Under the pieces are notes generated by a model that saw only the letters and a list, made by a program, of their open reading frames with translations, was not told the DNA's origin and ran no database searches. A stretch of DNA of 64,000 nt from Erythrobacter sp. JK5 (GTDB lineage: Bacteria; Pseudomonadota; Alphaproteobacteria; Sphingomonadales; Sphingomonadaceae): the NCBI RefSeq assembly GCF_018205975.1, contig NZ_CP073577.1, positions 2,666,001-2,730,000 on the forward strand, read 5' to 3'. Positions 1-25,702 of this stretch are shown here, piece by piece (the first letter of the stretch is position 1; the number at the start of each line of letters is the position of its first letter). A program made the translations under genes and the position numbers.

Positions 1-269
1 GGCTTGTCGAACCTTTCGTTCTCGACCACGACCAGCGAATCGCTGCCCAGCACGATCGCGTCCGTGTACTCGGACGCCAGCGCAGCCGCCTTGGCAACGC
101 TCAGCGCCTGGGCGATTTGCGCAGGGGAAGCATCGGTCAGCCCCGCTTCGATCCGGCGCTCGTCGATCTCAGCAGGAATCGCTTCGTAGCGAACTCCCGC
201 CGCATCGAGCATCGCCCGGCGCGACGCCGATTTCGACGCGAGGATCAGCCGCGGGCGCTCATTGCTCAT
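1..269 (-). CDS. maf: Maf-like nucleotide pyrophosphatase, 3' part outside window
   Basis: Only the first 89 residues are visible; the gene runs off the left edge. The N-terminus LILASKSASRRAML and the later GSDSLVVV segment are the signature strands of the Maf/YceF/YhdE family, which hydrolyses non-canonical or modified nucleoside triphosphates in the cytoplasm. The ATG overlaps the stop of the upstream ppsR gene in an ATGA, so the two are translationally coupled. In alphaproteobacteria this pair commonly lies beside the origin. The Maf subfamily cannot be decided without the rest of the protein. Confidence 0.85.
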   Translation of the reverse strand, partial: MSNERPRLILASKSASRRAMLDAAGVRYEAIPAEIDERRIEAGLTDASPAQIAQALSVAKAAALASEYTDAIVLGSDSLVVVENERFDK

Positions 270-1111
270 ATCGGCTTGGATACCCCGTCGACCGGTTTTT
301 CGCGGCGTTTGCGCTCCTGCACCAGGCGGATGATCGCCGCCGCGCTCTCTTCGATCGAACGTCGGGTTACGTCGATCACCGGCCAGCCATTGTCGGCAAA
401 CATCCGCCGCGCGAACTGGATTTCGGCCTTCACCCGCTCGTTGTCGACATAGGATGTCTCGGTCGCTTCGTTGAGCGAGAGCAGGCGGTTGCGCCGGATC
501 TGCACCAGCCGCTCGGGCGCGGTGGTAAGGCCGACGACCAGCGGATTGCGCAAGCGGAACAGGCTGTCGGGCGGCGGGCTTTCGACCACCAGCGGGATGT
601 TCGCCGTCTTGTAGCCGCGATTGGCAAGGTAGATGCTGGTCGGCGTCTTCGAGCTGCGCGACACGCCGGCGAGCACGATGTCGGCTTCTTCCCAGTCGTC
701 GTGCCCGATCCCGTCATCGTGCGCGATCGTGTACTGGATCGCATCGACGCGGCGGAAATAGTCGGCATCCATCAGGTGCTGGCGGCCAGGGCGGCCGTGC
801 GCCTCTTGCCCGAGCTGCGCTTCGAGCGCGGCAGTCACTTGATCGAGCACCGGAACCGCAGGCAGACCCAGCGTGCGACAATGATCTTCGAGCCGTGTGC
901 GGGTATCGGGGTTGACCAGGGTGAACAGCACCAGCCCCGGATTGTCGGCGAGATCGGGGACGATCCGGTCGAGGTGCTGGAGCGATCGCACCATCGGCCA
1001 GAAATGGCGGCTGACGTCGGGTCCGTCGAATTGCGCCAGCGCTGCCTTGGCGATCATTTCGAGCGTCTCGCCGGTCGAATCCGAGACGAGGTGCAGGTTG
1101 AGACGAGGCAT
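266..1111 (-). CDS. ppsR: Pyruvate,water/phosphate dikinase regulatory protein (PpsR/DUF299)
   Basis: A 281-residue bifunctional kinase/pyrophosphorylase of the DUF299 family, which reversibly phosphorylates PEP synthase or pyruvate phosphate dikinase and so controls gluconeogenic PEP formation. It opens with MPRLNLHLVSDSTGETLEMI, the usual LVSDSTGET start, and near residue 150 carries the P-loop-like GVSRSSKTPTSIYLA. The reading frame stays open for 93 further codons upstream, but homology begins at this ATG, and a longer start would invade the putative origin. It is divergent from hemE across that region, and its stop overlaps the maf start by 4 bp. Confidence 0.93.
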   Translation of the reverse strand: MPRLNLHLVSDSTGETLEMIAKAALAQFDGPDVSRHFWPMVRSLQHLDRIVPDLADNPGLVLFTLVNPDTRTRLEDHCRTLGLPAVPVLDQVTAALEAQLGQEAHGRPGRQHLMDADYFRRVDAIQYTIAHDDGIGHDDWEEADIVLAGVSRSSKTPTSIYLANRGYKTANIPLVVESPPPDSLFRLRNPLVVGLTTAPERLVQIRRNRLLSLNEATETSYVDNERVKAEIQFARRMFADNGWPVIDVTRRSIEESAAAIIRLVQERKRREKPVDGVSKPI

Positions 1112-1140
1112 AGGGGTGATTCGGCGGCCCGGTTGCGGCT

Positions 1141-1149
1141 TGTGGATAC
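1141..1149 (-). promoter_or_regulatory. DnaA-box-like site
   Basis: TGTGGATAC on the plus strand is GTATCCACA on the minus strand, one mismatch (first base) from the DnaA box TTATCCACA. It lies 30 bp inside the putative origin from the ppsR start. Confidence 0.5.
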
Positions 1150-1374
1150 GCGTGGGCATAAACCACGGGACAGGATCGTCGACAAGCGGGGTATGGATTT
1201 TCCTGCGCGCTGCCGGCGATTCCGCGAGCGCGTTTCTCGACACGAAGCAGAAGAATTCGACAGGCTGGGGACAGTGGGGATAGATCGTGCTTGACCGCGC
1301 AATCGCTCGGATTCGCATCGGTCGGCTGGGGGTGTTCGGGACGGGAGAAATCGGGCAGGAGCCGGGAATTCCCG

Positions 1375-1383
1375 CTATCCACA
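1375..1383 (+). promoter_or_regulatory. DnaA-box-like site next to A/T block
   Basis: CTATCCACA matches the DnaA box TTATCCACA at 8 of 9 positions. It lies 24 bp from the A/T-rich block, the usual layout of a DnaA box next to a DNA unwinding element. Confidence 0.55.
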
Positions 1384-1406
1384 GGGCCAACAGACTCCTT
1401 CAACCC

Positions 1407-1432
1407 ATTTATAAATAATTATTAATTGTTTA
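1407..1432. other. A/T-rich block, candidate DNA unwinding element
   Basis: Twenty-six bases containing only one G and no C, in a region otherwise above 60 percent GC by eye, immediately before the hemE ribosome-binding site (GAGGA, 6 bp before the ATG). It could serve both as origin unwinding element and as a flexible hemE promoter or leader region. Confidence 0.5.
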
Positions 1433-1442
1433 GAGGAACGCA

Positions 1443-2462
1443 ATGCCCGGTCCGCTGCTCGATACATTGAAGGGTGCGAAGCCCGATATCGCCCCCGTCT
1501 GGCTCATGCGCCAAGCGGGGCGATACCTGCCGGAATATCGCGAACTGCGCGCGGAAAAGGGCGGGTTTCTCGAACTGGTCTATGACAGCGAAGCCGCGGC
1601 CGAAATCACCGTCCAGCCGATCCGGCGGTTCGGGTTCGATGGCGCGATCCTGTTTTCCGATATCCTGATCGTCCCGCATGCGATGGGGCAAGGGCTTGCG
1701 TTTCTCGCCGGAGAGGGGCCGAAGCTGAGCCCGACCCTGCTCGAAGCGGAACTGAACGATTTCACCGCCACCCCCGCGAGGTTCGATCCGATCTACGAGA
1801 CGGTGCGGCTCACCCGCCGGCAGATCGGCGACGCGGTGACGATGCTCGGCTTTGCAGGATCGCCCTGGACGGTCGCAACCTACATGATCGCGGGCGAAGG
1901 TTCGAAGGATCAGGGCCCCGCGCGGCTGCTCGCCTACCGCGATCCGGCCCGCATGCAGGCAATCCTCGATGCGATCATCGAGGTGTCGGTTACCTATCTG
2001 CGGGGTCAGATCGATGCGGGTGCCGAGGCGGTGCAATTGTTCGACAGCTGGGCGGGGAGCCTCGCACCCGACGAGTTCGAGCGCTGGGTGATCGCTCCCA
2101 ATGCCGCGATCGTCGCGCAGATCGGGCAATCGCATTCGGATACGCCGGTGATCGGCTTTCCCAAGGGGGCAGGGGCGAAACTGCCCGCTTATGCCCGCGA
2201 GACCGGGGTCGATGCGATCGGGCTCGACGAGACGCTCGATCCGGTCTGGGCGCATGAAGTGCTGCCCGACGGCATGCCGGTTCAGGGCAATCTCGATCCC
2301 CTGCTGGTCGAAGCCGGCGGTCCGATGCTGCCGAACCGCGTTCGAGCGATCCTCGACGCGTTCGAGGATCGCCCCCATATCTTCAACCTCGGGCATGGCA
2401 TCGGCCAATTCACGCCGATCGAGCATGTCGAGCGGTTGCTCGCCGCTGTCAGGGGAGGGTAG
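1443..2462 (+). CDS. hemE: Uroporphyrinogen decarboxylase
   Basis: A 339-residue cytoplasmic enzyme that converts uroporphyrinogen III to coproporphyrinogen III in heme synthesis. The active-site N-terminal motif PVWLMRQAGRYLPEYR is intact near residue 20, followed by LFSDILIVPHAMGQGL, GFAGSPWTVATYM and, near the end, FNLGHGIGQFTP, all family hallmarks. Length is normal. The ATG is preceded by GAGGA. It is the first gene to the right of the putative origin, as in Caulobacter, and is followed after 9 bp by hemJ, the second of three heme genes in the window (hemB is at 31 kb). Confidence 0.97.
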   Translation: MPGPLLDTLKGAKPDIAPVWLMRQAGRYLPEYRELRAEKGGFLELVYDSEAAAEITVQPIRRFGFDGAILFSDILIVPHAMGQGLAFLAGEGPKLSPTLLEAELNDFTATPARFDPIYETVRLTRRQIGDAVTMLGFAGSPWTVATYMIAGEGSKDQGPARLLAYRDPARMQAILDAIIEVSVTYLRGQIDAGAEAVQLFDSWAGSLAPDEFERWVIAPNAAIVAQIGQSHSDTPVIGFPKGAGAKLPAYARETGVDAIGLDETLDPVWAHEVLPDGMPVQGNLDPLLVEAGGPMLPNRVRAILDAFEDRPHIFNLGHGIGQFTPIEHVERLLAAVRGG

Positions 2463-2471
2463 GGCACCACC

Positions 2472-2915
2472 ATGCAGACCACGCTTCTTTCGCTCTATCC
2501 CTGGTTGAAGATCGGGCACGTCATCTTCATGACCTTCTGGCTTGCCGGATTGTTCATGCTGCCGCGCCAGTGCATCTATATGCTCGACCACGCGCCGGGC
2601 AGCGCGGGCGAGGCCAAGTGGGCCGAGCGGATGGGCAAGCTGCGCACCATCATCCTCACGCCCAGCCTGACTGCGGTGTGGGTGCTGGGACTGACGCTGG
2701 CGGTGACGATCGGGGCGTTCAGCGAGGGTTGGTTTCATGCCAAGCTGACGCTGGTTGTGCTGCTGTCGGGCTATCACGGCTGGCTGGTTGCACAGACCAG
2801 GAAAATGGCGCGGGGCGAGCGACCGCTGAGTGAAAAGCGCCTGCGCATGGTCGGCGAGGTGCCGGGCCTCCTGCTCGTCCTGATCGTCGCGCTCGTCTAC
2901 CTGAAGCCGTTCTGA
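2472..2915 (+). CDS. hemJ: Protoporphyrinogen IX oxidase HemJ (membrane protein)
   Basis: A 147-residue inner-membrane protein with about four hydrophobic segments (near 8-30, 57-80, 86-104 and 128-146). KIGHVIFMTFWLAGLFMLPR carries the conserved His and the LPR motif of HemJ, the oxygen-independent oxidase that makes protoporphyrin IX in bacteria lacking HemG or HemY. Its place directly after hemE supports this over a generic CopD-like membrane protein. The two genes are close enough to share a transcript. Confidence 0.9.
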   Translation: MQTTLLSLYPWLKIGHVIFMTFWLAGLFMLPRQCIYMLDHAPGSAGEAKWAERMGKLRTIILTPSLTAVWVLGLTLAVTIGAFSEGWFHAKLTLVVLLSGYHGWLVAQTRKMARGERPLSEKRLRMVGEVPGLLLVLIVALVYLKPF

Positions 2916-2947
2916 GACGATAAGCGGGTCACCGCGCGCTTTCCCGA

Positions 2948-2976
2948 TTGACCTTCGTGCAACCGGGACATATTTT
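2948..2976 (+). promoter_or_regulatory. Candidate sigma-70-type promoter for rho, with long leader
   Basis: TTGACC (2948-2953) and TATTTT (2971-2976) are separated by exactly 17 bp, a good housekeeping promoter. Transcription would start near 2983 and leave an untranslated leader of about 150 nt before rho. That leader is rich in C and T (around 2985-3050) and has no obvious ORF, as expected if Rho loads there to terminate its own message. Autoregulation is inference from other rho genes. The rest of the 221-bp hemJ-rho gap shows nothing else. Confidence 0.45.
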
Positions 2977-3136
2977 CCCTGACATCACCTCCGGTTTGAC
3001 GGCGCGGCTTCCGCCCCGTCGGTCTGCTTTCTCCAAGCCCAGCCCTGCCGACCAGTCTGGTCGCGACACCAACAGGGCGCCTCGTTCACAGAGGTACTGA
3101 CCTGCCGGCCATCCAACTATCTGGAATATTTACACA

Positions 3137-4402
3137 ATGCATCTTAAAGACCTGAAACAGAAAACCCCGGCCGAGCTGGTTGCCATGGCCGAAGAGCTTG
3201 GGGTCGAGGGCGCTTCGACCATGCGGCGGCAGGACCTGCTGTTCAGCATTCTGCGCGAACTCGCCGAAGACGATGAATACGACGACAAGATCATGGGAAT
3301 CGGCACGATCGAGGTGCTGCAGGATGGATTCGGCTTCCTCCGCTCGCCCGAGGCGAATTATCTTGCCGGACCCGATGATATCTACGTGTCGCCCAACCAG
3401 ATCCGCAAATGGGGCCTGCGCACCGGCGATACGGTCGAAGGCGAAATTCGCGCGCCGCGGGATGGGGAGCGGTATTTTGCCCTGACCAGCCTCAGTTCGG
3501 TCAATTTCGAGGATCCCTCGGCGGTGCGGATGCGCACCAATTTCGACAACCTGACCCCGCTCTATCCCGATCAGAAACTCAATCTCGATACCGCCGATCC
3601 GACGGTGAAGGACAAGTCGGCGCGGGTGATCGACATCATTTCACCGCAGGGCAAGGGCCAGCGTGCGCTGATCGTCGCGCCGCCGCGAACCGGCAAGACG
3701 GTGCTGCTGCAGAACATCGCCAAGGCGATCACCGACAATCATCCCGAAGTGTTCCTGCTGGTGTTGCTGGTCGATGAGCGACCCGAGGAAGTGACCGACA
3801 TGCAGCGCAGCGTGAAGGGCGAGGTGATCTCCTCGACTTTCGATGAGCCGGCCAATCGCCACGTCCAGGTCGCTGAAATGGTGATCGAAAAGGCCAAGCG
3901 GCTGGTCGAACACAAGCACGACGTGGTGATCCTGCTCGATTCGATCACGCGTCTCGGTCGGGCCTACAACACCGTGGTTCCAAGCTCGGGCAAGGTGCTG
4001 ACCGGCGGTGTCGATGCCAACGCGCTCCAGCGGCCCAAGCGCTTCTTCGGCGCGGCGCGCAATATCGAAGAAGGCGGTTCGCTTTCGATCATCGCAACCG
4101 CGCTGATCGATACCGGGAGCCGGATGGACGAAGTGATCTTCGAGGAATTCAAAGGCACCGGTAACTCGGAAATCGTGCTCGACCGCAAGGTTTCGGATAA
4201 GCGCATCTTCCCCGCGCTCGATGTCGGCAAATCCGGCACCCGCAAGGAAGAACTGCTGGTCGAGAAGGACAAGCTGTCGAAGATGTGGGTGCTGCGCCGG
4301 ATCCTGATGCAGATGGGCACGGTCGACGCGATGGAATTCCTGCTCGACAAGATGAAGGACTCGAAAACCAACGAGGATTTCTTCGAGACGATGAACCAGT
4401 AA
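3137..4402 (+). CDS. rho: Transcription termination factor Rho
   Basis: A 421-residue hexameric RNA helicase that terminates transcription. The protein begins [20 protein letters not shown] (Rho N-terminal helical domain), continues with the cold-shock-like RNA-binding domain (about 48-125, including GFGFLRSP), then the RecA-like ATPase with Walker [12 protein letters not shown] (Lys near 187) and Walker [34 protein letters not shown] matches the Q and R loops. Length is typical for alphaproteobacteria, without the insertion domains of actinobacterial Rho. Confidence 0.98.
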
Positions 4403-4484
4403 GTGATTGCAATAAGGCGATTTCAACGGACATTGCGGCTGGAATGTTGGCAATTGCGGTGCCCGCGGCTAAGGCTCCGATCGT

Positions 4485-4877
4485 ATGCTGAGTCAGTATC
4501 TCTACATTAGCACTGCGCCGAGCCTGTCGCGCGAAGAGGTCGAGAAGATTCTCGAAACGAGTACGCGCAACAATCCGGCACACGGGATCACCGGGCTATT
4601 GCTCTATAACGGGCGGAATTTCCTGCAATTGCTCGAGGGTGAGGAAAACGAACTGGTCGGGCTGATGATGCGGATCGGCAGCGACAAGCGGCATACCGGC
4701 GTGTCGCTGCTGTCGAGCACGCAAATCGACGCCCGCAGCTGTCCGGATTGGGCGATGAAGCGCATGTTCATCGCGGAATCGGTCCAGAGCCGACGCGATA
4801 CGCTGGACGACGAGTTGCCCCAGGCGCTCGACCCGGAGATCCGCAAGATGATCGTCAATTTCGCGGTCTTGAACTAG
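4485..4877 (+). CDS. BLUF-domain blue-light sensor (single-domain)
   Basis: A 130-residue protein that is almost entirely one BLUF domain, binding FAD to sense blue light. Visible signatures are the N-terminal YLYIS with the photocycle Tyr (residue 7), NNPAHGITGLLLYNGRN, FLQLLEGEE with the conserved Gln, and PDWAMKRMF with the semi-conserved Trp. A short helical C-terminus follows but no output domain is fused, so it must signal through a partner. It stands alone between rho and a convergent gene. Its target is unknown. Confidence 0.92.
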   Translation: MLSQYLYISTAPSLSREEVEKILETSTRNNPAHGITGLLLYNGRNFLQLLEGEENELVGLMMRIGSDKRHTGVSLLSSTQIDARSCPDWAMKRMFIAESVQSRRDTLDDELPQALDPEIRKMIVNFAVLN

Positions 4878-4883
4878 CCGGCG

Positions 4884-5285
4884 CTACATCTCTCTTGCGC
4901 GTTCCAGCTGCGCAGCCATCATTTCCCAGACCTTGTTCACAGCCTTCAGCGGTCGAACCATGACTTTGAAATCGATGATCAGCCCGCTTTCGTCGAAGGT
5001 GATCATGTCGACGCCGTTGACGTGGATGCCGTCCATGTCGGTGGTGAACTCGAGTACCGCCGTACCGTTTCCAAGGACTTCGCGTATGTAGCGAAAGCTG
5101 TCGTTCCCAAGGGTTTGGCTGGCTGCTGCGAGATAGGCGATGACAATTGGTCTGCCGATCTGCGGGGTGTGGACGACCGGCGAATGGAACACTGCATCCT
5201 CGTGCATGATCGCGATCAGATCGTCGGGCCTGCTCCCGTTGTCGACCACTTCATGCCATCGGGCGAGTGCACGTTCTGTATTCAT
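4884..5285 (-). CDS. SnoaL-like / NTF2-fold protein
   Basis: A 133-residue small cytosolic protein with the cone-shaped NTF2 fold pattern: an N-terminal helix (RALARWHEVVDNGSRPDDLIAI), the short segment HEDAVFHSPV typical of SnoaL-like polyketide-cyclase-related proteins, and a C-terminal beta strand with FKVMVRPLKAV. Many such proteins have no known substrate, and none can be inferred here. It begins 9 bp after the stop of the dienelactone hydrolase gene, so the two probably form an operon. Confidence 0.8.
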   Translation of the reverse strand: MNTERALARWHEVVDNGSRPDDLIAIMHEDAVFHSPVVHTPQIGRPIVIAYLAAASQTLGNDSFRYIREVLGNGTAVLEFTTDMDGIHVNGVDMITFDESGLIIDFKVMVRPLKAVNKVWEMMAAQLERAREM

Positions 5286-5294
5286 AACAGATAC

Positions 5295-5993
5295 TTAGGA
5301 AAGATTCGCAGCAAAGAACGCCGATGTCCGCCGATCGGCCAGCTGCGCGGCCTGTTCATTGCGGCGCTTGCCGACTTCGGTCGCAAAGCCGTGGTCCAGA
5401 CCTTCGTAGTCGTGCAGCGTCACCTTCGGGTGATCGTCCAGCCCCTCATGCATCGCCGCCTGAGTGTCCTTGTCGACAAAGCCGTCCTCGGTCGGGATGT
5501 GGAGCATGAGCGGATGGGCGATCGCATGCTTTTCTCGCAGCAGGCCATCGATCCCGACGCCATAATAGCCGACCGAAGCGTCGATATCGGTGCGCGCCGC
5601 GGTCATGTAGGCGAGCCGGCCGCCGAGGCAGTAACCGACGCAGCCGACCTTCGTGATCCCCATGTCGCGGCGAATATGATGGATCGTCGCCTCGATATCG
5701 CGGATCCCCTGATCTTGATCGAACTTGCCCATCAGATCGAGTGCGCGCTCGAATTCCTGTTCGACATCGGGATCGAGCTCGACCCCCGGCTCAAGCCGCC
5801 AGAACAGGTCCGGCGCGACCGCCAGATACCCTTCGGCAGCGAGTTTGTCGCATTTCTGCCGGATACCCGGATTGACCCCGAAAATCTCCTGAATCACGAT
5901 TATCGCGGCCTTCGCGCCGCCAGCCGGGCGCGCAACATAGGCGGAGAATTGCGCGTCGCCGGAAAGAGTGGGGATCGAAACGGTCTCGGTCAT
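5295..5993 (-). CDS. Dienelactone hydrolase family protein
   Basis: A 232-residue alpha/beta hydrolase. The nucleophile Cys is in GYCLGG (near residue 121), the acid Asp in PTEDGFVD, and the His in GLDHGF, the Cys-Asp-His triad of dienelactone hydrolases. The early VIQEIFGVNPGIRQKCDKLA is also characteristic. The family hydrolyses dienelactone in chlorocatechol breakdown, but many members act on other esters, so the substrate stays open. It is transcribed with the SnoaL-like gene, away from DUF6489. Confidence 0.9.
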   Translation of the reverse strand: MTETVSIPTLSGDAQFSAYVARPAGGAKAAIIVIQEIFGVNPGIRQKCDKLAAEGYLAVAPDLFWRLEPGVELDPDVEQEFERALDLMGKFDQDQGIRDIEATIHHIRRDMGITKVGCVGYCLGGRLAYMTAARTDIDASVGYYGVGIDGLLREKHAIAHPLMLHIPTEDGFVDKDTQAAMHEGLDDHPKVTLHDYEGLDHGFATEVGKRRNEQAAQLADRRTSAFFAANLS

Positions 5994-6112
5994 CGCGGAT
6001 TTCCTCTTGAATGGGTGGATTGCGACTCCGGTCTATCCATTGCGTTCGGTTCATGCCAATCCCAAATGACAGGCGAGCGAAGGAACATCGCGCCATTGCG
6101 GGAGGACGCCCA

Positions 6113-6388
6113 ATGAAGATCAATGTCGAAATCGATTGTACGCCCGAGGAAGCGCGCACCTTCATGGGTTTGCCCGACGTGAGTCAGGCCAACAGCATCT
6201 ATGTCGACAACATCGCCAAGGCGATGAAGGGCGTCAGCAGTCCGGACCAGCTGCAGGAGTATGCCCAGGCGCTGGCGCCGATGGGGCAGGTGGGTCTCAA
6301 ACTGTTCCAGAGCTTCGTCGAGGGCGGAATGCGTGCGAGCCAGGGCGGCGCGGGCGGCAAGGGGAGCTCGAAGAAGGACGACGACTGA
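6113..6388 (+). CDS. DUF6489 family small protein
   Basis: A 91-residue protein beginning MKINVEIDCTPEEARTFMGL and ending in a Gly/Lys/Asp-rich tail (GGAGGKGSSKKDDD). I recognise it as the DUF6489 type found upstream of mnmE in sphingomonads; it has no known function. The ATG chosen has an SD-like GGAGGA 7 bp upstream; the frame stays open further 5' but that extension lacks family character. The hydrophobic middle with SFVEGGMRAS suggests a small amphipathic helical protein. It lies 21 bp before mnmE and is probably cotranscribed. Confidence 0.82.
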   Translation: MKINVEIDCTPEEARTFMGLPDVSQANSIYVDNIAKAMKGVSSPDQLQEYAQALAPMGQVGLKLFQSFVEGGMRASQGGAGGKGSSKKDDD

Positions 6389-6409
6389 CCTGAGGGGCTG
6401 ATTCGGCGC

Positions 6410-7687
6410 ATGTCGGACACGATTTTCGCGGTTTCCAGCGGCGCTCCTCCGGCAGCCATCGGGGTAATCCGGGTTTCGGGCCCCGCAGCACGTCATGCGG
6501 TGAAGACTCTGGCTGGTCGGGTGCCCGAGCCGCGGCGCGCTTCCCTTGCAGAATTGCGCGATGTTGAAGAGCGACTGCTCGATCAGGCGTTGATCCTGTG
6601 GTTTCCCGGTCCCGCCACTGCGACGGGAGAGGATCTCGCCGAATTCCACTGCCACGGGGGCCGGGCGGTGCTGAGGGCGGTCGAGCGCGCTCTGGAGAGC
6701 CTTGAAGGGGTGCGAGCGGCGGAACCCGGCGAGTTCACCCGGCGCGCCTTCGCCAACGGTCGGATTGATCTTGCCGAGGCGGAAGGTTTGGCCGATCTGC
6801 TGGCGGCGGAGACCGAGCTTCAGCGCGCGTCGGCCATCGCCAATGCCAGCGGAGCCATGTCGGCCAAAGTCGAAAGCTGGCGCGAACAGGTCCTTCACCT
6901 GTCGGCTCAGGTTGAGGCTGCTCTCGATTTTTCGGACGAGGACGACGTCGAGCAGCTGCCGGAGGGTTTCACGTGGAACATGGCCCGGCTGGGCAGTGAG
7001 ATTGCCGAGTGGCTCGGCAGACCCCGCTCCGATCGCCTGGGAGAAGGGTTCCGCGTCGTGCTCGCCGGACCGCCAAACTCGGGTAAGTCCACGCTTTTCA
7101 ACGCCTTGATCGAAAGCGAAGCGGCCATCACTTCGGCGATCGCGGGGACCACTCGCGATGTGATCGAACGATCCGTGGCGATTGCGGGTGTGCCGTTTAC
7201 TTTCGTCGACACTGCGGGTTTGCGCGTGAAAGGATCGGACGAGATCGAGGCGATCGGGATCGACCGGGCGCGCGAGCAGCTGCGGCGCGCCGATGTCGTG
7301 CTTTGGCTCGGTGATGAGGAAGAAGGGCCGGAAAACGCGTGGGAAATCGCAGCGCGCATGGACGCTCCGGATTTTGCACCCAAATCGCGCGCCATGTCTA
7401 CGCTTTCCGCCGTATCCGGTGAGGGGGTTGCGGCACTCAAGGCGCTGTTGGTCGATACGGCACGCGAGCGATTGCCCAAGCCGGGCGAGGCCGCGCTCAA
7501 CGCTCGCCAGCATGATCGGTTGAGCGAGGCAGCGACCGCGCTCAGGGCTGCGCAGGCGCATAGCGATCTGCTGCTCGTGGGCGAAGAGTTGCGCCGCGCG
7601 CGGCTCGCATTCGACCGGTTGATCGGCAGGGCAACGACGGAAGACATGCTCGACGCCCTGTTCGGACGATTTTGCATCGGGAAATAG
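6410..7687 (+). CDS. mnmE: tRNA modification GTPase MnmE (TrmE)
   Basis: A 425-residue GTPase that with MnmG installs the 5-carboxymethylaminomethyl group on wobble U34 of certain tRNAs. It has the N-terminal formyl-THF-binding domain, the GTPase domain with G1 GPPNSGKST, TTRD and DTAG, and the invariant C-terminal FCIGK whose Cys is needed for activity. The G4 position, usually NKxD, reads as ARMD, so guanine recognition is degenerate here. The coding sequence contains one parS site. A second lies between this gene and mnmG. Confidence 0.96.
   Translation: MSDTIFAVSSGAPPAAIGVIRVSGPAARHAVKTLAGRVPEPRRASLAELRDVEERLLDQALILWFPGPATATGEDLAEFHCHGGRAVLRAVERALESLEGVRAAEPGEFTRRAFANGRIDLAEAEGLADLLAAETELQRASAIANASGAMSAKVESWREQVLHLSAQVEAALDFSDEDDVEQLPEGFTWNMARLGSEIAEWLGRPRSDRLGEGFRVVLAGPPNSGKSTLFNALIESEAAITSAIAGTTRDVIERSVAIAGVPFTFVDTAGLRVKGSDEIEAIGIDRAREQLRRADVVLWLGDEEEGPENAWEIAARMDAPDFAPKSRAMSTLSAVSGEGVAALKALLVDTARERLPKPGEAALNARQHDRLSEAATALRAAQAHSDLLLVGEELRRARLAFDRLIGRATTEDMLDALFGRFCIGK
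6965..6980. promoter_or_regulatory. parS: parS centromere site 1 (inside mnmE)
   Basis: GGTTTCACGTGGAACA matches the parS consensus TGTTTCACGTGGAACA at 15 of 16 positions. In the protein it becomes the Thr-Trp-Asn after GF in the GTPase linker, so the site is embedded in coding sequence. Confidence 0.88.
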
Positions 7688-7707
7688 CCGGTCACCCTGT
7701 TCGGCCC

Positions 7708-7723
7708 CGTTTCACGTGGAACA
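7708..7723. promoter_or_regulatory. parS: parS centromere site 2 (mnmE-mnmG gap)
   Basis: CGTTTCACGTGGAACA, 15 of 16 to the parS consensus, in the 75-bp gap between mnmE and mnmG. ParB bound here could influence mnmG transcription. Confidence 0.9.
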
Positions 7724-7762
7724 GCTTTGACGCGGCGCGGATCAGACCCTATTTGCCCCGCC

Positions 7763-9625
7763 ATGCATCGTTTCGACGTTCTCGTGATCGGCGGGGGGCA
7801 CGCCGGCGTCGAGGCTGCCTGTGCGGCGGCCCGGATGGGCGCGCATACCGGATTGGTGAGCTTCGACCTCGAAGCGATCGGAGCGATGAGCTGCAACCCG
7901 GCGATCGGCGGGCTGGGCAAGGGGCATCTGGTTCGCGAGGTCGACGCACTCGACGGCGTGATCGGACGCGCGGCCGATGCCGGGGCGATCCACTACCGCA
8001 TGCTCAACCGCTCGAAGGGCAGCGCCGTCTGGGGTCCGCGCGTGCAGGCCGATCGCAGGTTGTTCAAGGCGTCGGTCCAGGCGCAGGTGAGGGCGCAGGC
8101 CAGGCTCGACCTGATCGAGGGCGAAGCCGCCGCCCTGGTGCTCGAGGGCGGCGCGGTCGCCGGGCTGGATCTTGCCGACGGCACAGTCCTTCGCGCGCGC
8201 CGCGTCATCCTGTGCACAGGGACTTTTCTCGGGGGCGTGCTGTTCCGCGGCGAAGAGCGGTTTGAGGGGGGGCGCATCGGTGAAAACGCCGCGATCCGGC
8301 TCGCCGAGCAATTGCACGGTGCGAATTTGCCGATGGCGCGGCTCAAGACCGGCACCCCGCCACGGCTGGATGGGCGCACGATCGACTGGGCGGCTCTACC
8401 CGAGCAGCCTTCCGACGCCGAGCCATGGACGATGTCGCCTCTGACGCCGAACCGCCTGAATCCGCAGGTTTTTTGCGCGATCACACGGACGACGCAGGTG
8501 GCCCATGATGCGATTCGCGCCAACCTGCACCGATCGCCGCTGTTTTCCGGCGCCATCGGCGCGGCCGGTCCGCGGTATTGTCCGTCGATCGAGGACAAGA
8601 TCCACCGGTTCGGCGATCGCGACGGACATCAGGTGTTTCTCGAACCCGAGGGGCTGGCGAGTCATCTCGTCTACCCGAACGGCATCAGCACGTCGCTGCC
8701 GGTCGATGTGCAGGAGACTGTGGTGCGCGCCATGCCGGGGCTCGAACGCGTTACCATCGTCGAACCCGGTTACGCGGTGGAATACGATCACATCGATCCG
8801 CGCGCGCTGACTCCCGACCTGCAGTTGCGTGCCATTCCCGGCCTGTATTGTGCCGGGCAGATCAACGGGACCACGGGATACGAAGAAGCGGCGGCGCAGG
8901 GTCTTGTCGCAGGGCTCGAGGCGGCGGCTGCGGAACTGGGCAGGGACGCGCCGCGGCTCGACCGTGCGAACTCGTATATCGCTGTAATGCTGGATGATTT
9001 GACGCTGCAGGGTGTCAGCGAGCCGTACCGGATGTTGACCGCGCGCGCGGAGTATCGCTTGCGCCTCCGGGCAAACAATGCGGCCACCCGCCTGACCGCT
9101 ATCGGTGTTGCGGCCGGTTGCGTTGGAGAGCAGCGCCGCAGGTGGATGGAGCAGCGCGAAACGGCCCGTGCCGAACTCACTGCCGCGTTTGCCCGGACAG
9201 TGCACGCCCGGGAACTGGTGGACGCTGGCCTGTCTGTACGGCGCGACAGCGGCGAGAAACCGGTGGCGGAGTGGCTGCGACACGACGGGATCGATTTCGA
9301 TGCCGTTCGTCCCTGGATGGGCGCGTTGCCGGAATTCGACCTATCGCTTGCGGAAGAGATGGCCGAGGATGCCGCGTACGCACCCTATCTCGCGCGTCAG
9401 GATGCCGAACTGCGCGATTTGCGGGCCAGCGAAGAGCTGCCGCTGCCGGGTGACTTCCCCTATGCGGCGGTGCCCGGCCTGTCGAACGAGATGATCGAGC
9501 GGCTGTCTGCCGCGGCACCGACGACGCTCGCGGCGGCGAGCCGTGTTCCGGGCGTCACCCCGGCGGCGCTGTCGGCCTTGCTGGTGCATGCTCGACGCCA
9601 CCAGTCCAGCCAGCGCGCCGCGTGA
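7763..9625 (+). CDS. mnmG: tRNA U34 carboxymethyltransferase subunit MnmG (GidA)
   Basis: A 620-residue FAD-dependent partner of MnmE. The N-terminal dinucleotide-binding motif [19 protein letters not shown], the [19 protein letters not shown] block and GTFLGGVLF are intact, as is the C-terminal helical domain with [11 protein letters not shown]. The ATG at 7763 places the FAD motif at residue 6 as in other MnmG proteins; the 12 codons before it in frame belong to the intergenic stretch. Its stop overlaps the GTG of rsmG. Confidence 0.97.
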
Positions 9626-10263
9626 GCGCGCCCACAATAATCCGAACCGAGAGCGAGGCACGTGAGTACACCGCGCGCTGGGCCGATGACGCGGCGATGG
9701 CGCGGCTCGAACGGTTTTCAGACTTGTTGCTCGCCGAAAACCAGGCTCAGAACCTGATCAGCAAGCCTTCCGAAGCGGCGCTGTGGCAGCGGCACATCGC
9801 CGACAGCGCGCAATTGCTCGAACATGTTCCACGTGAAACAATTGCGGGCACGGCGCCGGGGCCCTGGCTCGACCTCGGAACGGGTGCGGGATTCCCCGGA
9901 TTGGTCATCGCGGCGATCTGCCCGCACCTTGATGTCGTTCTGGTCGAATCGCGGCCCCGCCGCAGCGCGTTCTTGCGCGACAGTGTCGACAATCTCGGCC
10001 TGCGAAACTGCCGGGTAGTTGGTGAGCGGCTCGAACGGGTCAAACCTTTCAAAAGCTGGGTCATTTCGGCACGCGCCTTCGCTCCGCTGGAAAAGCTCCT
10101 CCGTTTATCCGCACCGTTCTCCACAAACCGGACCCTCTACCTCTTGCCCAAAGGGCGCTCGGCAACGCACGAACTGAATGCACTCAAGCCGTCGATTCGC
10201 GCGATGTTTCACGTGGAACGGTCTCTGACCGACGACGAAGCGGGCATCATCACCCGTGCCTGA
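9622..10263 (+). CDS. rsmG: 16S rRNA (guanine527-N7)-methyltransferase RsmG (GidB)
   Basis: A 213-residue Rossmann-fold methyltransferase that makes m7G527 in 16S rRNA using SAM. The SAM loop [15 protein letters not shown] is near residue 80, preceded by [19 protein letters not shown], the usual RsmG segment. The GTG start overlaps the mnmG stop as GTGA, implying translational coupling. The coding sequence carries two parS sites, read as FHVE and MFHV-type stretches near the middle and end. Confidence 0.95.
9825..9840. promoter_or_regulatory. parS: parS centromere site 3 (inside rsmG)
   Basis: TGTTCCACGTGAAACA, a perfect 16-of-16 match to the parS consensus TGTTNCACGTGAAACA, inside rsmG about 480 bp before parA. 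Confidence 0.95.
10205..10220. promoter_or_regulatory. parS: parS centromere site 4 (3' end of rsmG)
   Basis: TGTTTCACGTGGAACG, 15 of 16 to the parS consensus, 89 bp before the parA start. ParB binding so close may also autoregulate parAB. Confidence 0.92.
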
Positions 10264-10308
10264 GAGTGCGAAGCGCGCTATAGGTCGCGCATAAGAGAAG
10301 GAATTTCC

Positions 10309-11085
10309 ATGCTGACGATCGCCATTGCGAACCAGAAGGGCGGGGTGGGCAAGACGACCACCGCGATCAATATCGCCACCGCAATGGCTGCGACCGGATG
10401 GAAAACCCTCCTGATCGACCTCGACCCCCAAGGCAACGCTTCGACCGGGATGGGTGTTGGCGCGGGCGCGCGAGGATTCTCGAGCTACGACGTTGTGGTC
10501 GACCAACTGCCGCTGACCGAGGCGATCGGCCCGACCGGCATTCCCGGACTGGATATTGTCCCGGCAACTCAGGACCTTAGCGGAGCCGAAGTGGAGCTGG
10601 TTTCGGTCGAGGAGCGTACCGCCCGGCTCGCGCAAGCCCTTGAAGGGCACCGCGGTCATGAAATCTGCTTCATCGATTGCCCGCCGTCGCTCGGGTTGCT
10701 GACTCTCAACGCGCTGTGCGCGGCCGATACGCTACTGGTGCCGCTGCAATGCGAGTTCTTCGCGCTCGAAGGGCTGAGCCAGCTGCTGCAGACCGTTGAG
10801 CGGGTCCAGCAGCGGTTCAATCCCGCACTCGGGATTATTGGCGTGGCGCTGACGATGTTCGATCGCCGTAACCGCCTGACCGACCAGGTTGCCGACGATG
10901 TGCGCGATTGCCTCGGCAATCTCGTGTTCGAAACGGTCATCCCGCGCAACGTGCGCCTGTCCGAAGCGCCGAGCCACGGGCTCCCGGCGCTGGTTTACGA
11001 CAAGGATTGCATGGGAAGTCGCGCCTATATGGGGCTTGCGCGCGAGCTGATCGGCCGGTTTCCGCCCGAAAGGCAGGCGGCATGA
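10309..11085 (+). CDS. parA: Chromosome partitioning ATPase ParA
   Basis: A 258-residue Walker-type ATPase that positions ParB-parS complexes and drives origin segregation. The deviant Walker A KGGVGKTTTAINIA is at residues 10-20, the A' region LIDLDPQGNASTGMG follows, and FIDCPPSLGLLT is Walker B. Downstream LTMFDRRNRLTDQVADDVR is typical of chromosomal (Soj-type) ParA. It has no N-terminal DNA-binding extension, so it is not a plasmid type Ia ParA. The gene overlaps parB by ATGA. Confidence 0.97.
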   Translation: MLTIAIANQKGGVGKTTTAINIATAMAATGWKTLLIDLDPQGNASTGMGVGAGARGFSSYDVVVDQLPLTEAIGPTGIPGLDIVPATQDLSGAEVELVSVEERTARLAQALEGHRGHEICFIDCPPSLGLLTLNALCAADTLLVPLQCEFFALEGLSQLLQTVERVQQRFNPALGIIGVALTMFDRRNRLTDQVADDVRDCLGNLVFETVIPRNVRLSEAPSHGLPALVYDKDCMGSRAYMGLARELIGRFPPERQAA

Positions 11086-12071
11086 CCGAAAAACCGACCG
11101 ATCCGATCCGCTTTACCGTGCCGCAGCGCGGCCCCGCCGATCGCAAGATGAAGCTGGGCAAGGGGCTGGGCGCGCTGCTGGGCGAGAGCCGGCGCGAAGA
11201 GCCGCTGGTGCATCCGGACGCTTCCGAAGACCCGCAGACAACCGATGGGACGGTGCCGCGCGGCACTACTCCTCTGAAAACACTGTCGATTGCGTCGATC
11301 GAACCGCTGCCGAACAACCCGCGCAAGCATTTCGACGAGGCGGCGCTCGACGAACTCGCTTCGTCGATCGCGGTGCGCGGGGTGATCCAGCCGATCATCG
11401 TTCGCCCAAAGGGCAATGGCCGGTTCGAGCTGGTGGCTGGCGAGCGCCGTTGGCGGGCCGCGCAAAAGGCGCGCCTGCACGAGATCCCAGCACTGGTGCG
11501 CGAACTCGACGACCGCGAGGTCATGGCGCTCGCGCTGATCGAGAACCTGCAACGCGAAGATCTGAATCCGGTAGAAGAAGCACGGGCTTATCAGACGCTT
11601 AGCGACGACGAAGGGATGACCCAGGCGGAAATCGCCCGGATGGTTGAAAAGTCGCGCAGCCATGTCGCAAATATCCAGCGCTTGCTCAATCTCCCTGGCG
11701 AAGTGCTCGATCTGGTCGAGAGCGGGAGCTTGTCGATGGGGCACGCCCGGGCGCTGATCGGACAGGACGATGCGGCGTCGCTCGCGCAGCGCGCCGTCAA
11801 CGACAACCTGTCGGTGCGCGACATCGAAAAGCTGGTTCGCCAGCTGAACCGCAAAGCCGGCGACACTGTGTCCCGCGGCTCTGCCAACCGCGCCACTTCG
11901 ACCGAAAACGCCGATATTGCTGCGGTCCAGAGCCATCTCGAGGAATTTCTCGGGCTGAGAGTGCGAATCAAGGCCGATGCAGACCCCCGCTCGGGAGCGA
12001 TCACGATCCGCTACAACACGCTCGATCAGCTCGATCTCGTGTGCCAGCGACTGACCGGCGGCGACATTTAG
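11082..12071 (+). CDS. parB: Chromosome partitioning protein ParB
   Basis: A 329-residue parS-binding CTPase. The N-terminal ParA-contacting segment KLGKGLGALLGE starts near residue 24. The CTP-binding GERRWRAA and ENLQREDLNPVEEA boxes follow, then the helix-turn-helix MTQAEIARMVEKSRSHVANI and a C-terminal dimerisation domain. The ATG overlapping the parA stop was chosen because it gives the standard N-terminus; a longer in-frame extension would read through parA. Four matching parS sites lie 0.9-4 kb upstream. Confidence 0.97.
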   Translation: MTEKPTDPIRFTVPQRGPADRKMKLGKGLGALLGESRREEPLVHPDASEDPQTTDGTVPRGTTPLKTLSIASIEPLPNNPRKHFDEAALDELASSIAVRGVIQPIIVRPKGNGRFELVAGERRWRAAQKARLHEIPALVRELDDREVMALALIENLQREDLNPVEEARAYQTLSDDEGMTQAEIARMVEKSRSHVANIQRLLNLPGEVLDLVESGSLSMGHARALIGQDDAASLAQRAVNDNLSVRDIEKLVRQLNRKAGDTVSRGSANRATSTENADIAAVQSHLEEFLGLRVRIKADADPRSGAITIRYNTLDQLDLVCQRLTGGDI

Positions 12072-12103
12072 TCGAACTTAACCGAGCGACAAGCGACCAG
12101 GAG

Positions 12104-12126
12104 CGCGCAAATGCGCGTTTTGCGCG
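12104..12126 (+). terminator. Weak hairpin after parB; gap before DUF4402 gene
   Basis: CGCGCAAA and TTTGCGCG form 8-bp arms around a 7-nt loop 33 bp after parB. There is no T run, so it may be a processing hairpin or a Rho-independent terminator of low strength. The remainder of the 230-bp gap holds a TTAACCAT motif (12155-12162) resembling a CtrA half site and a GC-rich stretch with several possible stems before the DUF4402 gene. No riboswitch class could be recognised. Confidence 0.35.
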
Positions 12127-12301
12127 GGATTCCGCGCCAATTCCTACTGCGCTGTTAACCATACCTAAAAACGAACTCTGAACCCGGTGATCCTACTTAG
12201 GCGAGGCGAACGGGCGGCTATGCCCGCTCGGCAGGCTCCCCCGGGCAAAATCGGATCGGGGTGCCTGCAACGGGATATGACCACGCTTGGAAGGACCAAT
12301 A

Positions 12302-12850
12302 ATGACTAAGACTCTTCGCTTCGGGGCCGCCGGCATCACGATGTTTGCCGCCCTCGGAATGGGCACCGCAGCCCACGCCGACACCGCCACTGCCGATGCA
12401 TCGGCCGAGGTTCTCGACGCACTCGTTCTCACCAACACTGCCGCGCTCGATTTCGGCGCGATGGTCGTGAGCGGCGCCGGCACCGTGGTTCTCGACCCGG
12501 CCAACTCGCTGACCTGCACCGATCCGGACATCGTCTGCTCGGGCACCACTTCGGCGGCCGCGTTCACCGTTGAAGGCACCGCCAACAAGGCCGTGACCAT
12601 CAACCTGCCGACCGGCACCGTGAACCTGCGTCACCCGAACTACAACGCCGCGACCAGCGCCGGCGAGCACACGATCGAACTCGACACCTTCACGTCGAGC
12701 GACAACAACGCGACGTCGGGCGATCCCGAAGTTACGCTCGACGGGACGGGCGATGGCAGCTTCACCGTGGGCGGCACGATCACCATCGACGGCAGCGAAG
12801 AAGCCGGCCTGTTCGAAGCGACCTTCGACGTATCGGTCGAATATTCGTAA
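12302..12850 (+). CDS. DUF4402 domain secreted protein (putative pilin-like subunit)
   Basis: A 182-residue protein with a signal peptide (MTKTLRFGAAGITMFAALGM, cleavage likely after AHA near residue 29) and a beta-rich mature domain of the DUF4402 type. ALDFGAMVVSGAGTVVLDP and the Thr/Asp-rich later strands are characteristic. The family occurs beside chaperones and ushers and is thought to resemble fimbrial subunits, but no member here is characterised. There is one Cys pair (TCTDPDIVC). Its own terminator follows directly, so it can be made in excess of the chaperone and usher, as subunit genes usually are. Confidence 0.85.
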   Translation: MTKTLRFGAAGITMFAALGMGTAAHADTATADASAEVLDALVLTNTAALDFGAMVVSGAGTVVLDPANSLTCTDPDIVCSGTTSAAAFTVEGTANKAVTINLPTGTVNLRHPNYNAATSAGEHTIELDTFTSSDNNATSGDPEVTLDGTGDGSFTVGGTITIDGSEEAGLFEATFDVSVEYS

Positions 12851-12896
12851 TAACGCACCGGGTTGCGCCTGATCCAGGCGCCCCGCTGAAATCAGG

Positions 12897-12928
12897 AAAG
12901 CCGCGCCTCTCCCCGGGGCGCGGCTTTT
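12897..12928 (+). terminator. Rho-independent terminator after DUF4402 gene
   Basis: AAAGCCGCGCC (12897-12907) pairs perfectly with GGCGCGGCTTT (12917-12927), a 9-nt loop and a following T give a strong hairpin 46 bp after the stop. It would decouple or attenuate transcription into the chaperone gene. Confidence 0.85.
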
Positions 12929-12959
12929 CGCATGCGCGGCCCGGATTTGCGCGCGCGAT

Positions 12960-12974
12960 TTAATCATCCTTAAC
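12960..12974 (+). promoter_or_regulatory. CtrA-like TTAA repeat upstream of chaperone gene
   Basis: TTAA-N6-TTAAC lies 83 bp before the chaperone ATG. The alphaproteobacterial CtrA consensus is TTAA-N7-TTAA, so the spacing is one short. A TTAACCAT half-site-like motif also lies before the DUF4402 gene. Regulation by CtrA is inference only. Confidence 0.3.
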
Positions 12975-13056
12975 CCTATCCGCTTACCACACTCGGTGAA
13001 ACCACGCAGGTCCGCGCGCAGGCGCGGGCTGCGACTTACCGGGGGTCTCACTGTCG

Positions 13057-13893
13057 ATGTCATTCAAATCGTTCCGTAAATGCGCTCGCAGGGCAATGAC
13101 CGCCGCCGTGTTGGCCGCAGCTGCATTCGCAGCCCCGGTTAACGCCCAGGGCGACTTGCTGGTGGCGCCGACCCGCGTGATTCTCGATGGCAGTCGCGGA
13201 ACCGAGGTGATCCTCAGCAATATCGGCAGCGAGGAAGCGACTTACCGGATCGGGCTCGAACTGCGGCGGATGGAAGAGAACGGGCGGCTCGTTCCGGTCG
13301 AGAAGGCCGAGGCCAATGCGACCGAGGAAGCTGCACTCGGCATGATCCGCTATGCCCCGCGGCGAATCACCCTGCCGCCGGGCCAGCCGCAGGCGGTGCG
13401 CCTGGCCGCGCGTCCGGGCGCCGACCTGCCCGACGGCGAGTACCGGGTGCACATGTCGTTCAAGGCAATTCCCAAGCCGCGCTCGGTGACCGAGCAGCAA
13501 ACCCAGGCACAGGGCGTTTCGATCCAGCTGATCCCGATTTACGGAGTGACGATCCCGATCATCGTGCGCCACGGTCGTCTCGAGGCGCAGGTCGCGATCA
13601 ACCAGCCGAAAATCGTCGCCGGAGAGAACGGCCCCGAACTCGCGGTCACCATGAGCCGCGCGGGCGACAGCTCGGTCTATGGCGAACTGCGCATCACCAA
13701 GCCGGGGCTGGACGATCCGATCGCGCTGCTGCGCGGCGTTGCGATCTATCCCGAGATCGGCACCCGCGAATTGCGCATCCAGCTGACCGAGCAGCAGGCC
13801 GCCAGCATCACCGGCCAGCTGCGTTTCGAATATCGCGAGATGCCCGAAGCCGGCGGCGGCCTGATCGCCGCAGTCGACGCCTTCGTCGGCTGA
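13057..13893 (+). CDS. Periplasmic PapD-like fimbrial chaperone
   Basis: A 278-residue protein with a signal peptide ending in VNAQ near residue 31. The mature N-terminus GDLLVAPTRVILDGSRGTEVIL, the conserved Tyr/Arg strand ATYRIGLELRRM and the proline-rich segment LPPGQPQAVRLAAR fit the immunoglobulin-like first domain of pilus chaperones, which hold subunits by donor-strand complementation. The second domain (about 165-278) is less typical. It lies between the DUF4402 gene and the usher-like gene, which supports a chaperone role. Confidence 0.85.
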   Translation: MSFKSFRKCARRAMTAAVLAAAAFAAPVNAQGDLLVAPTRVILDGSRGTEVILSNIGSEEATYRIGLELRRMEENGRLVPVEKAEANATEEAALGMIRYAPRRITLPPGQPQAVRLAARPGADLPDGEYRVHMSFKAIPKPRSVTEQQTQAQGVSIQLIPIYGVTIPIIVRHGRLEAQVAINQPKIVAGENGPELAVTMSRAGDSSVYGELRITKPGLDDPIALLRGVAIYPEIGTRELRIQLTEQQAASITGQLRFEYREMPEAGGGLIAAVDAFVG

Positions 13894-13931
13894 GGCGACG
13901 GATTGGCGGCTTGAGGGCTGCACACAAGACC

Positions 13932-16760: not shown

Positions 16761-16781
16761 GGGATCGCGGGCGACAGACCG

Positions 16782-17714
16782 TTACTGCTTGATCATCTTG
16801 ACCGGGCGCGGTGCCGGGGCCGGGACCGGACGCGGCGTCTGCTTGATCAGTTTGGGCGAGGGCGCCGGAGGAATGATCCGGGCACCCGGAATGCGTTCTT
16901 CGCGCACCGTTTCGCGCACGATCACGCGCTGGCGGATCTCGGTTTGCACCGGCACCCACGCGACCTGCGGTTGCTGGCACCCGCAGCCATACCCGTAATA
17001 GCCTGCATGCGCCGGTGCGTAGCCGTAACCCTGATATCCGTATCCCGCCGCCGGATAAGGCATCACGCGCGCGGCGCCCGGCTGCCCGTATTGCGACAGG
17101 TATCCGTCGAGCGCTGCTTCGCAATCGTAGCGGTCGTTCATTTTCCCGCCGCCGACGAGGTTTCCGAGCAGCACTCCGGCAAGTCCCCCGGTACCGGCAC
17201 CGATCAGCGTCCCGGCAAGGCGATCACCATCGGCGACACGATTGCCGATCAACCCGCCGGCGACCGCGCCGAGCAGGCCGCCGATGATTCCGCCCTTGTC
17301 GCCTTCGCTGCGCCCGGCAGTCCGCCGCTCGCATTCCGCAAGCCACTGGTCGCGTTCGAACACCAACGGTGCGGCCGCTGCCGGACCGCCGGGATACGGT
17401 GCATACCCCTGCTGTAGGTAAGGACCGCGCTGGACCGCATCGGGATACGGCGCCGGTCGCTCGATCCGGCGGGTGCGCGTGATCGTCTCCACCCCGTCGG
17501 GACCGACCGTGTATTCCTCCTCGAACAGCTGCTGTCGGGTCGTCTGCGGAACCGGCACGGGCGGAACCGTGCGAACTTCGGGCGGACCGGGCTGAACCGG
17601 CACCGGCAGCGGCGGAAGCTCATCCTGCGCGAGCGCGGGCGCGGCGAGTCCCAGAGCCGGGAGCGCAATGGCCAGGCCGGACATGGCGCGGAGCGGGTGG
17701 CGACGTTTCGACAT
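16782..17714 (-). CDS. Glycine-zipper 2TM domain envelope protein
   Basis: A 310-residue exported protein: signal peptide ending near residue 29 (APALAQ), Pro-rich linker, then a glycine-zipper segment GGIIGGLLGAVAGGLIGNRV repeated as GTLIGAGTGGLAGVLLGNLV (about 143-188), a Tyr/Gly-rich stretch with four Cys-Gly turns, and a Pro/Lys-rich tail. Such zippers insert in or span membranes in SlyB/OmpA-like envelope proteins. No specific role is known. It converges on the usher-like gene, with 21 bp between stops. Confidence 0.82.
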   Translation of the reverse strand: MSKRRHPLRAMSGLAIALPALGLAAPALAQDELPPLPVPVQPGPPEVRTVPPVPVPQTTRQQLFEEEYTVGPDGVETITRTRRIERPAPYPDAVQRGPYLQQGYAPYPGGPAAAAPLVFERDQWLAECERRTAGRSEGDKGGIIGGLLGAVAGGLIGNRVADGDRLAGTLIGAGTGGLAGVLLGNLVGGGKMNDRYDCEAALDGYLSQYGQPGAARVMPYPAAGYGYQGYGYAPAHAGYYGYGCGCQQPQVAWVPVQTEIRQRVIVRETVREERIPGARIIPPAPSPKLIKQTPRPVPAPAPRPVKMIKQ

Positions 17715-17871
17715 GGAATTCCCCCAGGACTTGGACGCGTGGCAGTGCCGAATCGCACCGCAGGTTGCACATTTCGTTAGCTAAATGTTTACCACTCCGC
17801 CGGGCGAGCGACCAAGCCGGGCCTTGCCCCTGTCTCGTTTCGGGGCGTTTGAGCGCGACAGGGTGTGCGCG

Positions 17872-18369: not shown

Positions 18370-18433
18370 CGCTCAACCCCTTGGCGCGAACGCCCTGTTG
18401 CCGCAAGCTCCGGCGCGGCTTATCTCGGCGGAC

Positions 18434-19903: not shown

Positions 19904-19950
19904 CGGCTGCCAGAGGGGCGTGGCCTCGGCTCGCCCGGTCGGCAGCGCTG

Positions 19951-25514: not shown

Positions 25515-25702
25515 GCGAGTTCCTTTCCTGGGGCTTCCCAGCAGCGGACAGGGGGCGAATCATCCCGCAGGCCGGAGCCTCGGCGTGCGAGGTCGGGCAC
25601 CGTGTCGTAACCGTCCGGTTATGTTGCTACTGGTCTGAAGCCTTTCTGCTTTTCGTCACCAACGCCGGGACCAACCGACGCGGTTGATCCATTATATAAC
25701 AT

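Follow-up and report, generated by a model that had tools for sequence, protein, structure and literature searches.

In sphingomonads, the chromosomal origin of replication (oriC) has been placed beside hemE, in Sphingopyxis granuli TFA as well as in most Sphingomonadaceae listed in DoriC, and this hemE-side origin is described as having conserved DnaA boxes, a putative unwinding element and a conserved gene order (PMC4741004). The hemE gene is reported as an origin neighbour in other alphaproteobacteria as well (PMC1914354). The literature bears out the remark of the initial annotation that the Caulobacter origin adjoins hemE; Cori of Caulobacter crescentus also carries weak DnaA boxes and several GANTC sites (PMC4468827, PMC3973325, PMC1914354). 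A review describes CtrA sites as absent outside Caulobacter, with Rickettsia as a possible exception (PMC4468827), and dnaA is described as not conserved near the origin in Sphingomonadales (PMC8116508).

The window analysed here, a stretch of 64 kb, comprises bases 2,666,001–2,730,000 of a single-contig genome of 3,340,457 bp. Near its left end, the divergently transcribed genes ppsR and hemE are separated by a gap of 331 bp (window positions 1112–1442, genome positions 2,667,112–2,667,442). This gap is almost certainly the chromosomal oriC, a prediction based on position, anatomy, conservation, sampled skew and symmetry. The genes and sites that define the neighbourhood are as follows.

266–1111, minus strand: ppsR, PEP synthase / pyruvate phosphate dikinase regulator (NCBIfam PRK05339, E=6e-98, above cut-off)
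1112–1442, no strand: putative oriC, the entire intergenic gap (skew break, dif-like site opposite, parS nearby, footprints in relatives)
1443–2462, plus strand: hemE, uroporphyrinogen decarboxylase (TIGR01464, 376.8 bits versus a cut-off of 302.95)
6965–10220, no strand: four parS sites (6965, 7708, 9825 and 10205) within mnmE-mnmG-rsmG
10309–12071, plus strand: parA (10309–11085) and parB (11082–12071), ParA-type and ParB-type matches, the ParA equivalog cut-off not being reached

The start codon of ppsR, the divergent left neighbour of the gap, occupies positions 1109–1111 on the minus strand, and hemE is read on the plus strand, so the genes diverge from the gap as initially annotated. The ppsR product scored below the cut-off of the PpsR equivalog model, and the profile matches of HemJ and ParA were likewise below their equivalog cut-offs; HemE was up to 86% identical to its counterparts in Erythrobacter species, which places the host within the Erythrobacter group of the Sphingomonadales. 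The gene order ppsR-gap-hemE-hemJ-rho, together with mnmE-mnmG-rsmG-parA-parB, represents the conserved origin cluster with hemE. The presence of parS and parAB a few kilobases to the right of the gap, also proposed earlier, was confirmed at 6965–10220 and 10309–12071, respectively. The four parS sites, found with zero or one mismatch to TGTTNCACGTGNAACA, are all that the genome contains at that setting and lie 5.5–8.8 kb from the gap. The reading frames following parB (12287–16760) give the impression, from their translations, of three products: one small, secreted and fimbrial-type, one chaperone-like, and one large and usher-like.

The gap thus shares with the sphingomonad oriC its place beside hemE, the DnaA boxes with a putative unwinding element and the conserved gene order (PMC4741004). 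Like Cori, it neighbours hemE and combines weak DnaA boxes with several GANTC sites. Unlike Cori, the whole 64-kb window contains no TTAA-N7-TTAA CtrA site, in agreement with the initial annotation, and the gap has no TGATCCACA box, which we take to be the Caulobacter G-box sequence. A TTAA-N6-8-TTAA pair was present in only one (L029) of 51 other gaps classed as Sphingomonadales. The hemE-side location of the origin is already published for sphingomonads, and the present gap is a new and well supported example.

The objects for comparative analysis were 80 HemE loci from named records, of which 70 had a divergent ppsR-hemE gap of 200–600 bp and ten were dropped since ppsR was not found; with the window, 71 gaps were compared. 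Thirty of them, with sizes of 276–434 bp, formed the Erythrobacter group, which includes Novosphingobium, Croceicoccus and Citromicrobium and was delimited by hit list and alignment, while 22 were other sphingomonad gaps and 19 were other alphaproteobacterial gaps. One of the records, titled Bacillus sp. 2B10 (L045), has a sphingomonad-like hemE-ppsR locus with a HemE 64% identical to the query, and is probably mislabelled or contaminated. A second set of 47 gaps was fetched with the sequence signature described below; it is not independent of the 30-gap set because the 48 fetched stretches overlap partly with the 80 loci. The elements recognized in the gap are listed here with their conservation in the two sets.

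1141–1149, minus strand: left DnaA box GTATCCACA, 8/9 (core TGTGGA kept in 27 or more of the 30 aligned gaps and in 35 of the 47 fetched ones)
1158–1168, no strand: ATAAACCACGG block (every base shared by 27 or more of the 30 aligned gaps; ATAAACCAC in 44 of the 47 fetched ones)
1181–1186, no strand: GACAAG block (no base kept in fewer than 27 of the 30 aligned gaps; found in all 47 fetched gaps, the sets partly overlapping)
1234–1242, plus strand: weak DnaA-box-like site TTCTCGACA, 7/9
1254–1262, plus strand: degenerate box position, where a number of relatives have TTATCGACA or TTGTCGACA
1275–1283, minus strand: weak DnaA box CTATCCCCA, 7/9 (TTATCCCCA or TTATCCTCA, 8/9, in several relatives)
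1291–1295, plus strand: TTGAC, -35-like, 14 bp before GATTCG
1310–1315, plus strand: GATTCG, CcrM (GANTC) site, lying 68 bp before the terminal TCCACAGG (all 30 aligned gaps have GANTC here)
1375–1392, plus strand: terminal DnaA box CTATCCACA (8/9, 1375–1383) plus GGGCCAACA, containing the signature TCCACAGGNCCAACA at 1378–1392
1393–1397, plus strand: second CcrM site, GACTC (GANTC at the aligned column in 21 of 30)
1407–1434, no strand: AT-rich putative duplex-unwinding element (1407–1432: 26 bp with one G and no C)

In the alignment of the Erythrobacter group, 71 of the 331 window positions were common to at least 28 rows. Runs of at least five positions kept in at least 27 of the 30 rows were TGTGGA (1141), ATAAACCACGG (1158), GACAAG (1181), TTGAC (1291), TCCACAGG (1378) and CCAACA (1387), with TGTGGA and TCCACAGG being the cores of the two 8/9 DnaA boxes. 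The nearly invariant ATAAACCACGG block makes a poor DnaA box, and ATAAACCAC was found in none of the 22 other sphingomonad gaps. The group also differs from other sphingomonads in TCCACAGGNCC, present in all 30 of its gaps versus 1 of the 22 other sphingomonad gaps and none of the 19 other alphaproteobacterial ones.

The signature TCCACAGGNCCAACA was found in 49 of 149 family genomes, always as a single copy, and a control pattern had no match. Inspection of the stretches fetched from the 48 other genomes showed that 47 matches lie between divergent ppsR and hemE. The remaining one, in G127 (L128), was rejected as an origin, being a chance match within a reading frame of a genome whose hemE is at 775,884. 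The exact signature was missing from 100 of the 149 genomes, including one of the same genus (G041, hemE at 1,148,169). Besides the origin coordinate, the analysis gives a once-per-genome signature by which the ppsR-hemE origin can be recognized in about one-third of the sampled family genomes and which is useful to orient chromosomes.

GC skew was sampled rather than computed continuously, in 20 stretches of 20 kb and the window, and later in nine further stretches. It was positive in 9 of 10 samples to the right of the gap (mean +0.018) and negative in 10 of 11 to the left (mean -0.021); the sign was thus wrong in 2 of 21 samples, and an additional left stretch at 2,545,001 was slightly positive against the trend. 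The initial annotation had named a GC-skew minimum far from this position as the observation that would speak against an origin here, a check that the sampled skew passed. The best two-way split of the circle fell at 2.66–2.68 Mb (difference 0.0384), although the break is placed only roughly because 2.52–2.64 Mb scored nearly as high (0.0379).

Almost directly opposite, separated from the gap by 0.987 of the half circle, a dif-like site was found at 976,077, with three mismatches to a relaxed dif pattern for which the control had no match. Within one 20-kb stretch around this site the skew changed from +0.018 on the left to -0.043 on the right, and the samples across the terminus region gave +0.011 at 915 kb, then +0.001, -0.009, and -0.022 at 985 kb. 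A shorter dif core was present without mismatches in 66 of the 149 family genomes, one copy in each. Both the signature and a dif match were available for 25 genomes and lay on one contig in 10; G002 (0.76) and G121 (0.63) were left out of the distance set, their contigs making up 89% and 77% of the genome, respectively. In the remaining eight, including the own genome, the distance from signature to dif was 0.895–0.987 of the half circle in seven and 0.57 in G098. The contig of the latter (contig 1) is near-complete, so either its replichores are strongly unbalanced or the dif has moved or is a false match.

The finding of two 8/9 DnaA boxes in the initial annotation was reproduced, while its single 7/9 box was an undercount, as three were found (1153, minus; 1234, plus; 1275, minus). 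The pattern search revealed no 9/9 box in the gap, which counts against an origin, as does the absence of the TGTGGA core of the left box from 12 of the 47 fetched gaps. Box positions are kept in relatives while the sequence of single boxes varies, and the weak middle boxes are stronger in several relatives, where they read TTATCGACA, TTATCCCCA or TTATCCTCA. With up to one mismatch, the window had 4 matches versus 2.77 expected, and 27 of 100 shuffles reached 4; the whole genome had 160 versus 282 for the reversed control pattern, from which about 1.9 box pairs within 243 bp are expected by chance somewhere in the genome. The number of DnaA boxes alone is not significant and is no proof of an origin, and box counting was dropped as such.

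Four perfect TTATCCACA boxes occur in the genome, all outside the gap, which also counts against it, and all as singletons. They were rejected as origins: the 2 kb around them contain neither a second box with up to one mismatch nor a comparable AT block. Another rejected candidate was the pair of near-boxes at 339,213 and 339,226, flanked by two reading frames that diverge, on an arm where the sampled skew mostly keeps one sign; this pair was found among 100 listed of the 160 near-boxes, so further ones may exist. Two 8/9 boxes 12 bp apart, at window positions 10105–10125, lie inside rsmG between parS sites and may be there by chance.

The block with one G and no C noted earlier before hemE was found at 1407–1432, 10 bp ahead of the hemE start. 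It provides the sole 28-mer with at most two G/C among 640,190 in a 641-kb sample of the own genome. A 28-mer with at most six G/C was present near hemE in 29 of the 30 Erythrobacter-group gaps, and nine G/C were counted in the other (L025). Matches with one mismatch to WATCAANNNNTTR, presumably the IHF consensus, start at 1401, at the edge of the AT block, and at 1420, inside it; AT-rich sequence yields such matches easily. DnaA-trios, the repeats with a central A that begin within 16 bp of a DnaA box, are described as part of a basal unwinding system (PMC8287927). In a crude test of our own on the 30 gaps, used in place of the published program, DnaA-trio runs were not above shuffles (mean 1.2 and 2.2 per strand versus 2.3 and 2.2).

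In the predicted origin, DnaA-ATP would load on the stronger end boxes, reversed at 1141–1149 and forward at 1375–1383, and on the weaker boxes between them, and would bend the DNA or form filaments across about 240 bp. The AT-rich block at 1407–1434, just past the forward terminal box, could then melt and admit the helicase. Replication would proceed bidirectionally as far as the dif-like site at 976,077, and ParB bound to the four parS sites 5.5–8.8 kb to the right may separate the new origins.

An alternative is that the gap serves only as a conserved bidirectional promoter region from which ppsR and hemE are transcribed, DnaA being a transcription factor there, and that the origin lies elsewhere, for example at dnaA. 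The two genes do diverge at the gap, TTGAC-N14-GATTCG resembles a -35 element with a CcrM site, and the box number alone is not significant. The spacing TTGAC-N12-16-GAKTCG was found in 25 of the 30 Erythrobacter-group gaps and 37 of the 47 fetched ones, but no conserved -10 follows TTGAC in the aligned gaps, and a promoter would not need so extreme an AT block. The extended GcrA motif is given as YGAKTCG (PMC7987155); it was present in 17 of the 47 fetched gaps and absent from the window, where a purine precedes GA (GGATTCG). In the own genome, TTGAC-N14-GAKTCG occurred 10 times versus 7 for the reversed control, with no clear enrichment. A GcrA promoter was thus not accepted as proven, given the lack of a conserved -10 and the absence of YGAKTCG from the window and from 30 of the 47 relatives. 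An origin at dnaA was also rejected: dnaA is at 3,174,675, 507 kb from the gap, and the sampled skew has no lasting sign change there (+0.019 before it, +0.015 in its own stretch, -0.004 in the next at 1–20,000, then +0.026), while the skew break, the opposite dif-like site and parS all indicate the gap. We regard the promoter-only explanation as very unlikely.

Even less probable, to the point of being hardly credible, is an origin nearby but outside the gap, for instance in the rsmG-parA stretch. It has two 8/9 boxes within 21 bp near parS, and sampled skew is too coarse to separate places 9 kb apart. These boxes, however, are inside the rsmG reading frame (9622–10263), and it is at hemE that the footprinted architecture and the single-copy signature are located. 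Moreover, among the 30 most AT-rich 28-mers listed for the window, 27 start at 1392–1418 and the others at 5279 and 25690–25691. The reading of the ppsR-hemE gap as oriC, as initially proposed, agrees with the sampled skew, the opposite dif-like site, the footprints in relatives and the published sphingomonad location.

Four GANTC sites, the number given in the initial annotation, were found in the gap at 1118, 1218, 1310 and 1393. Such a density is uncommon, since at least four sites per 331 bp were seen in 86 of 12,640 windows of the 641-kb own-genome sample. The site at 1310 is fixed in position: searched for at 62–76 bp upstream of TCCACAGG, a GANTC started at 66–69 bp in all 47 fetched gaps (68 bp in the window), and three of them had a further GANTC at 74–76 bp. 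The GAKTCG form of this site accounted for 43 of 47 fetched gaps versus 235 of 1,113 GANTC in the own-genome sample, and in the alignment N was T or G with the other bases fixed in 30 of 30 rows; given the partial overlap of the two sets and the non-independence of the relatives, these counts are not probabilities. Of the 22 other sphingomonad gaps, 19 had GANTC at one column, in every case as GAMTC (GAKTC on the opposite strand), and 13 had it at a second column, while no GANTC column reached 40% in the 19 other alphaproteobacterial gaps.

The Erythrobacter-group, other sphingomonad and other alphaproteobacterial gaps contained 9.8, 16.0 and 8.0 GANTC sites per kb, respectively, with 1.8–2.5 in the rest of the loci, and totals of 97, 122 and 65 versus 38.4, 31.7 and 38.6 expected from gap dinucleotides. 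A more than 1.5-fold intergenic enrichment of GANTC is reported as general in such bacteria (PMC3973325), and therefore part of the gap enrichment is expected. The Sphingomonas gaps L043, L044 and L058 each contain 12 GANTC in about 311 bp, where about 2 per kb is usual for the loci. Such density is reminiscent of the dense GATC sites in the Escherichia coli origin. Dam uses GATC, and both Dam/SeqA at E. coli oriC and ori2 of Agrobacterium tumefaciens resemble the gap in having methylation sites within the origin. For ori2, a second origin of the repABC and not the DnaA type, a CcrM methylation brake reminiscent of Dam/SeqA has been proposed (PMC11514494).

The own genome encodes GcrA and one CcrM-type protein with a RAMA domain (at 1,693,934). 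The GANTC at 1310 is a conserved putative methylation target, and that it times initiation is a guess. A more specific proposal, which we consider rather unlikely, is that in this group the CcrM site could be a built-in part of the initiation complex, at a nearly constant 66–69 bp from the box beside the melting site, and that its state, fully or half methylated, would be sensed by GcrA or another protein and would take over from CtrA the gating of re-initiation. If so, the GAMTC column kept by 19 of the 22 other sphingomonad gaps would be the same switch in the opposite orientation. In Caulobacter, according to a review, initiation does not depend on CcrM, although overexpressing the enzyme disturbs chromosome number (PMC6090056). 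A limited literature search (Erythrobacter origins; GANTC with oriC and CcrM) turned up no description of a CcrM site fixed in position for these origins. The locked site makes GANTC-timed initiation outside Caulobacter, an old question, directly testable. One of the genome's four perfect TTATCCACA boxes, at 1,695,093–1,695,101 (G000; L114:894–902), lies in approximately the first 13 codons of a ccrM-like methyltransferase frame, and this placement hints at a possible control of ccrM by DnaA.
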